From assembly GCA_018303505.1 (NCBI GenBank), contig JAGVYA010000021.1:1-49275 (forward strand): a DNA stretch of 49,275 nt. Direction: 5' to 3'. This stretch comes from Candidatus Woesearchaeota archaeon (GTDB taxonomy: Archaea; Nanobdellota; Nanobdellia; Woesearchaeales; GW2011-AR4). Position numbers and translations under genes: made by a program. The notes beneath the pieces were generated by a model. It was not told the origin of the DNA. It was given only the letters and a program-made list of their open reading frames with translations, and did not search any database. Every line of letters begins with the position of its first letter. The stretch's first letter is position 1. This document shows, in pieces, positions 10,951-13,565 of this stretch.

Positions 10951-11520
10951 TCACTTTTGATATTTGCTATCCTTCTTCAAAATCCATTTTGCAGCATCAA
11001 GCAAATTCTTTGCAAAATAATCCGGACTTACTTCATTTTTAGCATTAATGCCATAGCCAGTCAGCACGTGAATTGTCTTGCAGCCTACATTTTTCCCCAT
11101 TTCAAAATCGCTTTTTCTGTCGCCTATCACAAATGATTTTTTCAAGTCAATTCCAAACTCTTCTGCTGCTTCTTGAAGGAACTTTGTTTTTGGCTTGCGG
11201 CATTCGCAGTTGTCCTCTGGCTTATGAGGGCAGTAATATGTTTTTTGAATTTTTATATTCTGTTTTTTCAATTCTTTAATTAAATGGTTATTGAATTTAT
11301 TGAAATCTTCTAATGTGTAATATCCCCTTCCGATGCCTGATTGATTTGTGATAATAATTAGCTTAAAATCTTTTGATAATAATTTTAAACCTTCGACTGC
11401 ATTTGGTATTAATTTGAAATCTTCCAGCTTATGATGGTAGCCAACGTCTTCAACCAAAACGCCATCCCTATCGACTAAGATTGCTTTGTTTTTGTTTTCT
11501 CCAATTTTTGTGGTATTCAT
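10951..11520 (-). CDS. gmhB: D-glycero-beta-D-manno-heptose-1,7-bisphosphate 7-phosphatase
   Basis: This 189-residue HAD-family phosphatase has the catalytic DRDGVLVED at about residue 17, IITNQSGIGRG, a CPHKPEDNCECRKP zinc-loop region typical of GmhB, and GDRKSDFEMG. The family removes the 7-phosphate from heptose 1,7-bisphosphate. The present open frame begins with an ATG at 11520 that lies inside the 3' end of the homing-endonuclease gene, so its first 12 or so residues (NTTKIGENKNK) are read out of endonuclease DNA. The ancestral start is probably the ATG at 12521, which overlaps the kinase stop as ATGA and encodes MKKAILV. The same KAILV recurs just before DRDG. See the insertion feature. 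Confidence 0.88.
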   Translation of the reverse strand: MNTTKIGENKNKAILVDRDGVLVEDVGYHHKLEDFKLIPNAVEGLKLLSKDFKLIIITNQSGIGRGYYTLEDFNKFNNHLIKELKKQNIKIQKTYYCPHKPEDNCECRKPKTKFLQEAAEEFGIDLKKSFVIGDRKSDFEMGKNVGCKTIHVLTGYGINAKNEVSPDYFAKNLLDAAKWILKKDSKYQK

Positions 11521-12289
11521 TGTATCTCTTTCTATATTCTGGGTTTTGCATTCTTCTCTGATGATTTATTTGATGTTGCTTTTTTATAAGTTCATGTCTT
11601 ATAGGATTTGCCATATACTTATAGTATCTAATCTTATCTTTTTGCCTTCTTTTTAAATTTTCTTCATTTAATCTTTTATTGTTTTCTTCTGCAAACGGTC
11701 CTAACTTGTAATTCATGCATTTAGGAATGTAATCTTTTATCAAATTTAAGAATTTCTTAATTTGTTGAACACTAAAATACAAGTAATATCTCTTATAATC
11801 TCTGTTTATGGTGCAATTTATATCAAATTTTTCTTTCAAGAAATCCACTAAAATTTTGTTTTCTTCATATGACACATAAGTGGCAATTTTCGCATTTTGA
11901 TTTATATATCCAAAAGAACCATCATCACAATACCATATAGCCAATGCTAATGGTCCTACCTTCTGCAATGTTTCTTTTGCTATACATTTCTTATTATTTT
12001 TGTAAAATATTTTAAAATAACTGGTTAATACCGGGTGTGTTTTTGTCAATAATATTATATGGTAATAAACTTTGTTTGTGCGTGAATCAAAAACCTTAAA
12101 TTCTAAAGTTTTAGGTCTAAAACAATCTAAATATTTAGCTTTATATTCTAGATATTTTTTTTGTTTGAGTGAATGCTGTATCCTAAAATTTGCATTTATT
12201 GCTTTGCCTCTCAGTTGTAATCCACCATCCCCTAACAAACTTCCAATTAAAACTTGTTCTGCATCTAAATCTACTTTAGTGTATACCAT
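11468..12289 (-). CDS. LAGLIDADG homing endonuclease
   Basis: The start is placed at the ATG at 12289, preceded by GGAGG at good spacing; the frame stays open to 12418 but that part is a hairpin-rich leader. The 273-residue protein has two LAGLIDADG-type motifs, EQVLIGSLLGDGGL near the N-terminus and GPLALAIWYCDDGSF at about residue 110. Each brings the acidic residue that binds the catalytic metal. The last 75 residues are very rich in Lys, Arg and Tyr and probably bind DNA. Its stop codon falls inside the DRD codons of gmhB, and its 3' end supplies the present gmhB start. It would cut an empty gmhB allele and spread by repair. Confidence 0.85.
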   Translation of the reverse strand: MVYTKVDLDAEQVLIGSLLGDGGLQLRGKAINANFRIQHSLKQKKYLEYKAKYLDCFRPKTLEFKVFDSRTNKVYYHIILLTKTHPVLTSYFKIFYKNNKKCIAKETLQKVGPLALAIWYCDDGSFGYINQNAKIATYVSYEENKILVDFLKEKFDINCTINRDYKRYYLYFSVQQIKKFLNLIKDYIPKCMNYKLGPFAEENNKRLNEENLKRRQKDKIRYYKYMANPIRHELIKKQHQINHQRRMQNPEYRKRYNEYHKNWRKQKQSNLSR

Positions 12290-12500
12290 TTTAATAACCT
12301 CCGCAGTTTTTGAACTGCAAGAGTTTCCTAAAATTTTTGAGCCATATGTTTTTAGGCTTACCGTAGCCGACCTTTCTGAAGGAAAGGAAAAAACATAATG
12401 AGCGAAAAAATTACTCATTTAATCATCTCTCAAGAATTAGACCTTTAAATAGTTCACGCGAAAATGTCCAGTGCTTTTTTGTCCAGTGGTACGTAATTCC
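11473..12500 (-). mobile_element. homing-endonuclease element inserted near the start of gmhB
   Basis: The kinase stop overlaps an ATG at 12521 (ATGA) that opens MKKAILV and then runs into unrelated sequence. About 1,030 bases later the frame KAILV resumes and continues into DRDGVL of GmhB. The 14-base block GCAATTCTAGTTG and its relative GCAATCTTAGTCG flank the element and differ only at third codon positions. Between the 5' boundary and the endonuclease ATG lie several good hairpins, for example CCTTTC-CTTCA-GAAAGG, GGCT-ACGGTA-AGCC and GCAGTT-CAAA-AACTGC. This could be an intron or a free-standing endonuclease insertion. Exact borders are uncertain by about 15 bases. Confidence 0.7.
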
Positions 12501-12517
12501 AACTAGAATTGCCTTTT

Positions 12518-13369
12518 TCATAGGTTCTCAATTTCCCTTTTTATTTCGTCAATGCTTACAGAAGCAGTTCCTATTTTTCCAACTTTTATGCCTGCAGCAA
12601 TATTTGCTAATGTGGCAGCTTCTTCAAGATTTGCTCCTGATGCCATTGCAAGAGCAATTGTAGCAACAACTGTGTCGCCTGCCCCAATCAAGCTGTAAAC
12701 TTCTTTTGCATTTGCCGGGATGTGCTTTATGCTTCCATCCCTCTCAAACAAAGACATTCCTTTTTCTCCTCTTGTTATAAGCACATTTGTGTTGAGATAC
12801 TTCAACAGCTTATTGCCAATTTCTATTAAAGCATCATCACTTTCATCCTCGATATTAGTCATTTCACTTGCTTCTGCGTTATTTGGAGTTATCAAAGTTA
12901 CATTTGCATATAAGTCACGGTGCTTTGGCTTTGGGTCCACTATCACGATTTTGTTGTTTTCCCTTGATATTTGGATTAGCCTTTGGCTTATCTCAGGAGT
13001 TATAACCCCTTTTGCATAATCTGAAATTACAACAACATCAATATCTTTGATTGTTTTTTCCAGAAAAGTTATCATTGCGCTTTCTATATTTTTATGAACA
13101 TGCTCTTTTTTCTCATAATCAACCCTTAGCAATTGCTGGCTTCTTCCGACAATTCTCACTTTTTGCGTTGTTGGCTTGTCATTATCGGTGAAAATGCCGT
13201 TTGTGTTTATTCCTTTCCTTTTCAGCTCTTCAAGCAGAATATTCTTTGCTTCGTCATTTCCAGCTATTCCAACCATGAAAGCATTTCCATCAAGCGCAGC
13301 TACATTATTGGCCACATTTGAAGCTCCTCCCGGCTCATAGGTTTCTTTCAGCACATTTACAACCTGCAC
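12518..13369 (-). CDS. rfaE1: heptose-7-phosphate kinase, N-terminally truncated
   Basis: This ribokinase/PfkB-fold protein matches the kinase half of HldE. It has PGGASNVANNVAAL, RVDYEKKE, VVISDYAKGVITP, DPKPKHRD, LITPNNAEASEM, LITRGEKGMSLF and the catalytic GAGDTV near the C-terminus. The family phosphorylates D-glycero-D-manno-heptose 7-phosphate at C1. The homology extends upstream of the GTG at 13369 as RISPEAP, but a TAA stop sits directly before the R codon. The usual first 30 or so residues (GDxMLDxYxxG, which help bind the sugar) are absent from the AT-rich DNA upstream. The gene is therefore truncated or decaying, or starts at a non-standard codon. Position +2 before GAGD is also unusual (YSLIGAGD rather than YDVTGAGD). 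Confidence 0.8.
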   Translation of the reverse strand: MQVVNVLKETYEPGGASNVANNVAALDGNAFMVGIAGNDEAKNILLEELKRKGINTNGIFTDNDKPTTQKVRIVGRSQQLLRVDYEKKEHVHKNIESAMITFLEKTIKDIDVVVISDYAKGVITPEISQRLIQISRENNKIVIVDPKPKHRDLYANVTLITPNNAEASEMTNIEDESDDALIEIGNKLLKYLNTNVLITRGEKGMSLFERDGSIKHIPANAKEVYSLIGAGDTVVATIALAMASGANLEEAATLANIAAGIKVGKIGTASVSIDEIKREIENL

Positions 13370-13565
13370 AGGCGCCTCTGGGCTTATTCTTTAGTAGTCT
13401 TTGTTTCATTTTTTAATTTATTTTTTTCAATGTTTTATTTAATTGATAATTTTTAATTTTTTCAATTTTAATTATGTTTTATTAAATATAAACTTGATGT
13501 TTTTTGTAATTTTATTTTTTACTTTCTCAGCGCATTATTTATATTATCGTTTCAAAAAAATCTCA
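13370..13565. other. AT-rich spacer where the kinase N-terminus should be
   Basis: About 196 bases of extremely AT-rich sequence separate the deoxyhypusine-synthase-like gene from the kinase. No reading frame resembling a PfkB N-terminus is seen in any minus-strand frame. Only the codons for RISPEAP at 13370-13390 remain recognisable, directly after an in-frame stop. Confidence 0.6.

Follow-up and report, generated by a model that had tools for sequence, protein, structure and literature searches.

The present study analyzes the 5′ end of gmhB in a 49,275-nt stretch of DNA (contig JAGVYA010000021.1, positions 1–49,275, assembly GCA_018303505.1) from a metagenome-assembled Candidatus Woesearchaeota archaeon, the whole of which is called the window here. 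The features at the locus, with the basis for each in parentheses, are as follows.

12518–13369, minus strand: heptose-7-phosphate kinase of the HldE domain I type, N-terminally shortened in the assembly (PF00294, TIGR02198)
12501–12521, minus strand: relic of the native gmhB start, MKKAILV, and proposed left homology arm (empty sites of relatives, codon comparison)
12423–12521, minus strand: 32-codon dead-end frame from the native ATG (sequence)
12444–12488, minus strand: putative promoter motif, CACTGGAC twice and then TATTTAAA (dispersed in 30 of 36 family genomes; a single copy in the window)
12297–12415, minus strand: structured 5′ leader RNA of the endonuclease gene (fold z −2.65, covariance model matches, covariation)
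12298–12302, minus strand: GGAGG Shine-Dalgarno site (sequence; kept in other copies)
11468–12289, minus strand: LAGLIDADG_2 homing endonuclease with two motifs, I-SceI-like, its stop inside gmhB (PF03161, I-SceI match, alignment)
11473–11487, minus strand: replacement KAILV codons carried by the element (empty sites of relatives, codon comparison)
10951–11520, minus strand: gmhB from its likely start, ATG 11520 (MNTTKIGENKNKAILVDRDG...), overlapping the endonuclease tail, with the gene body from 11472 (ATG at the matching position in contig L221)

The kinase reading frame ends in a TGA that overlaps the native gmhB ATG at 12521, as an earlier sequence-only reading of this DNA had proposed. 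Beyond MKKAILV the native frame continues as GITYHWTKKHWTFSRELFKGLILER, which is 25 element-derived codons, and then stops at 12423. An insert of about 1 kb separates this start from a second KAILV (11487–11473), which leads into DRDGVLVEDVGYHH and so into an intact GmhB. The earlier observation that KAILV recurs about 1 kb on with silent changes and runs into DRDG holds in full: the two copies read AAG GCA ATT CTA GTT and AAA GCA ATC TTA GTC, with 4 of 15 bases different and every difference silent. Four random base changes would leave the peptide intact with a probability of about 0.002, and a six-frame translation of the 49-kb window contains KAILV only twice. That reading did not see that the element itself brings the downstream KAILV as a replacement part, nor that gyrB and a nucleotidyltransferase gene of other archaea show the same layout. 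At the far end of the kinase, compared with genome G019 (locus L055), about 33 codons including VIGDIMLDKYIWG are gone after MKQRLLK, with a frame change (13369–13409, minus strand); this N-terminal loss is either real decay or an assembly fault.

The endonuclease (273 residues) belongs to the LAGLIDADG_2 family, scoring well above the curated cut-off for PF03161 (E 2.9e-37, 128.7 bits, cut-off 25) and retaining both motifs with their acidic residues; G20 D21 and D122 D123 G124 are invariant in the alignment, and I-SceI is matched at E about 3e-12. Upstream of it is the dispersed motif followed by a 120-base structured 5′ leader that is common to other LAGLIDADG genes. Paired positions of the leader covary (0.328 vs 0.203 in shuffles and at most 0.14 in slid versions, from four sequences only) and show compensatory changes, and the Shine-Dalgarno site sits at the end of the second stem. 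The hairpin-rich leader, the GGAGG and the LAGLIDADG gene ending inside gmhB had all been recognized from the letters, and the fold score, the covariation and the PF03161 match bear this out. A covariance model of the leader matches five genomes, all from one Woesearchaeota genus: two matches are the gmhB elements described here, two lie upstream of other LAGLIDADG-type open reading frames, and one is at an open reading frame without a Pfam match. LAGLIDADG genes of different subfamilies share this leader (window 12297–12415 and loci L018, L053, L054, and L055), and no Rfam family corresponds to it. A coding origin for the leader was considered and rejected, as changes in hairpin length between copies break the frame and RNA structure fits better.

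The CACTGGAC/TATTTAAA motif may act as a promoter, to judge from its position and its TATA-like box; in the family genomes it precedes endonuclease genes, other genes, and tRNA-like sequences. In loci L056–L064 and L103–L142 the CACTGGAC boxes and TATTTAAA resemble a promoter dispersed through the lineage and lie upstream of endonuclease genes, ribonucleotide reductase, a methyltransferase, and tRNA-like sequences. At L056 (about 1640–1750) and L062 (about 1490–1590), partial tRNA-like 5′ halves stand between the motif and an apparently complete tRNA-like sequence, and these partial copies may be scars left where elements replaced the 5′ halves of tRNAs.

Comparison with relatives shows what the site looks like when empty. 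gmhB was found in 31 of 36 family genomes, and among the 28 readable starts 26 run uninterrupted into DRDG while two are occupied, the window and G015 (locus L018, JACPTD010000060.1, Candidatus Woesearchaeota). At empty sites within the genus the kinase TGA overlaps an ATG and the gene begins M-x-x-A-V-F-x-DRDG, from which MKKAILV can be recognized as the native start. The sequence-only reading had held that a homing-endonuclease element splits that start, which these counts uphold; it had also named, as evidence against itself, uninterrupted gmhB genes in relatives lacking MKKAILV, and the opposite was found, the native ATG overlapping the kinase TGA within the genus. G015 has MTKAVFI as its relic and keeps the leader; its endonuclease has suffered truncation and a frameshift, and the endonuclease tail shares its reading frame with KNKVVILDRDG. 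The 26 empty and two occupied sites, together with the decayed endonuclease of G015, therefore show that the insert is an acquired element and that gmhB persists once its endonuclease has been lost. A third copy of the gmhB type is on the IMG/VR contig L221, with 51% identity over nearly the whole endonuclease, the 3′ end of which overlaps the GmhB start MKEKNRAIFLDRDG. An assembly or binning artefact might be suggested by the metagenomic origin of the contig and its damaged kinase start, but G015, an independent genome, has this element at the identical site, and L221 has a related one, which makes an artefact extremely improbable.

The gmhB start codon is probably the ATG at 11520, and L221 carries an ATG at the matching position and in the matching frame; ATG 11520 has no strong Shine-Dalgarno site, and it has no counterpart in G015, whose gmhB shares a frame with the endonuclease tail. 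That shared frame, and an A-rich run where the two genes meet in the window, would suit production of GmhB as an endonuclease fusion or by frameshifting, with no internal start of its own. This we regard as unlikely, because stops and frame differences intervene in both the window and L221, and both have an ATG in the gmhB frame at a matching place.

The sequence-only reading had left two routes to GmhB, translation from a start inside the endonuclease gene or RNA splicing to restore MKKAILVDRDG; the former is supported and the latter is not. An intron, whether group I, bulge-helix-bulge or of an unknown kind, could be favored by the native start kept upstream and in register, by a structured leader, and by the frequency of LAGLIDADG genes in archaeal introns (PMC6125680). 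But the covariance search that had been suggested, run with Rfam over the window and the insert, gave no match at gathering or relaxed thresholds, to group I introns or to any other model, and the best bulge-helix-bulge score in the insert (21) equalled the shuffle median (21), with no position shared with G015. A tRNA search found none in the window. The leader is a putative promoter motif and an untranslated region common to other endonuclease genes, and the second KAILV lies in the gmhB frame with its protein motif kept in three copies. Splicing would leave that second copy unexplained; the parallel elements considered below have complete second starts. An intron is thus very improbable. 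Nor is there an unbroken frame into both exteins, as an intein would have: stops occur at 12423 and at the endonuclease end, and the frames differ.

The same layout recurs at gyrB. At twelve DPANN gyrB loci a native N-terminus (..IKVLEGLEGVRKR) is fused in frame to an endonuclease, and a complete gyrB with an N-terminus of its own, the second at the locus, comes next; these endonucleases are close relatives of the one in the window. Empty gyrB sites in the window's genus read SYEAKDIQVLAGLSAVRKRPAMYIG. The genus has two occupied genomes, G012 and G003. Their upstream relics are of the host type, with identities to genus sisters of 0.91 and 0.83; their downstream starts are foreign, at 0.46 and 0.45, and past residue 40 GyrB identity is back to about the genus baseline. 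In six further gyrB pairs, 10–13 of 13–19 shared residues are specified by different codons. An automatic relic test covered 158 loci; of the twelve at gyrB, L172 scored 48, just under the 95th percentile (50) of a null inflated by gyrB cross-matches. High scorers outside gyrB proved to be low-complexity or repeat-like DNA or tandem endonuclease pieces and were discarded.

A sugar nucleotidyltransferase gene provides a further host. Its empty sites read ATGGAxGCxATA(A/G)T followed by LAAG codons. In G018 the gene is occupied: the relic ATGGAAGCCATAATA is joined to the endonuclease, and the nucleotidyltransferase begins downstream at a new GTG. In G014 a scar remains (L332 2226–2410, minus strand) in which the endonuclease is gone, the relic reads ACGGAAGCAATGATATTAG, and the native ATG is ACG, so that this nucleotidyltransferase apparently depends on the element's start. 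At gmhB, gyrB, and the nucleotidyltransferase alike, the endonuclease has a complete host gene on one side and, on the other, a leftover piece of that gene's end. The leftover is host-type and the functional end foreign at gyrB, in G012 and G003; the duplicated stretch at gmhB is five codons, too short to tell host from foreign origin, and sliding identity along gmhB showed no departure from baseline that would mark a co-conversion tract. A single chance insertion of an endonuclease gene, with gmhB on an internal start and the KAILV repeat a small target-site duplication or a coincidence, would be compatible with a repeat of only five codons at gmhB taken by itself. This is quite unlikely given three copies of the gmhB type, the same layout at twelve gyrB loci and the nucleotidyltransferase, and foreign gyrB starts of more than 20 residues, beyond any target-site duplication.

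Several other loci resemble these in part. L165 has the same arrangement of endonuclease tail on host start, and it and the related elements L156 and L179 have no clear relic upstream. In L002, L069, L070, L071, and L207, a small conserved gene that matches no Pfam family comes immediately after the LAGLIDADG_2 gene, and a radA-like gene follows it where the locus extends far enough. In L082 (genome G200, 1019–1973) an endonuclease is fused behind a Gmd-like N-terminus and precedes an Rmd-like gene; this is either another case or an effect of similar neighbours, and since Gmd and Rmd are similar neighbours it was excluded from the cases. In L072 (G033:C67) the tail of an endonuclease fragment overlaps a transaldolase start (MKIFIDSAN), and the contig ends too soon for a relic to be judged.

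Taken together, we judge it very likely that the insert is a homing element that acts at the gmhB 5′ end by replacing the gene's start, with host function preserved without splicing. In the mechanism we propose, the endonuclease would cut uninterrupted gmhB at the conserved codons of HAD motif I (hhhhDRDG), and an element-bearing donor would template repair, with the native start MKKAILV as left arm and the gmhB body as right arm. The endonuclease cassette and the re-coded first codons would be copied in together, so that the recipient would carry the relic, the endonuclease and the replacement start ahead of its own gene body. Translation of gmhB would then begin within the 3′-terminal part of the endonuclease gene, and the element's KAILV would rebuild the first beta strand of GmhB. 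The gmhB-site endonuclease would be expressed from its own promoter, leader, and Shine-Dalgarno site, and the endonucleases at gyrB and the nucleotidyltransferase would use the host's native start. Silent re-coding of the replacement codons should guard both against cleavage and against loop-out recombination with the relic.

Comparable elements have been described in fungi. WHO elements, known from Torulaspora and Lachancea yeasts and put forward as a third structural class, replace the FBA1 3′ end at each homing and leave the old end behind as a fragment (PMC7282813). As in WHO, the archaeal endonuclease gene lies beside a chimeric host gene (FBA1 in WHO), homing would replace one gene end with no splicing, the recipient's old end is kept as a fragment that would serve as homology arm, and resistance would come from sequence differences (PMC7282813). 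WHO elements act at the 3′ end of a eukaryotic nuclear gene, lie downstream, and derive from an intein/zinc-finger fusion (PMC7282813); unlike them, the archaeal elements act at the 5′ end in prokaryotic chromosomes, lie upstream, and are I-SceI-like, and at gyrB and the nucleotidyltransferase they use the host's own start. Mobile endonuclease ORFs in fungal mitochondria (Glomus atp6, atp9, cox2, and nad3; Allomyces atp6) replace C-termini (PMC3630166). In them, too, a protein gene with one end duplicated contains the endonuclease ORF; the native end resembles close relatives and the inserted end is foreign, with silent differences (PMC3630166). The archaeal elements replace the N-terminus and the start codon. 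Because it is the 5′ end that is replaced here, and not the 3′ end and C-terminus as in WHO elements and mitochondrial ORFs proper, the archaeal elements are read as a 5′-end mirror image of both, a variant and not a member. Archaeal group I and bulge-helix-bulge introns with LAGLIDADG genes share the endonuclease superfamily, including PF03161, and the archaeal phyla (PMC6125680), but intron structure and splice motifs are absent here and replacement codons keep host function. Synthetic home-and-rescue drives likewise place a nuclease element within conserved coding sequence and supply the interrupted gene end in re-coded form (PMC7968924); being engineered, Cas9-based, and directed at 3′ coding ends in insects, they are an analogy of design only. 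In the open-access literature, with most subscription journals outside its coverage, we found no report of an archaeal or 5′-end version.

Our broader interpretation, somewhat less secure than that for gmhB but still probable, is that DPANN archaea carry a distinct and widespread class of homing elements that replace the 5′ ends of conserved genes and amount to natural home-and-rescue drives. Each would take over or discard the native start and supply a re-coded one, so that the host gene would go on needing the element's start once the endonuclease had disappeared, and the gmhB branch would also use a leader RNA common to other LAGLIDADG genes. Hosts usually tolerate homing endonucleases because these are spliced out as parts of introns or inteins. 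If the interpretation is true, a mirror-image class at at least three archaeal host genes would extend the WHO-type class to prokaryotes and to gene starts, and would be a natural counterpart of the re-coded rescue in synthetic drives. The idea is directly testable, the enzymes being I-SceI relatives with known uninterrupted sites. It would also account for chimeric N-termini of archaeal GyrB, which would mislead both start annotation and phylogeny.
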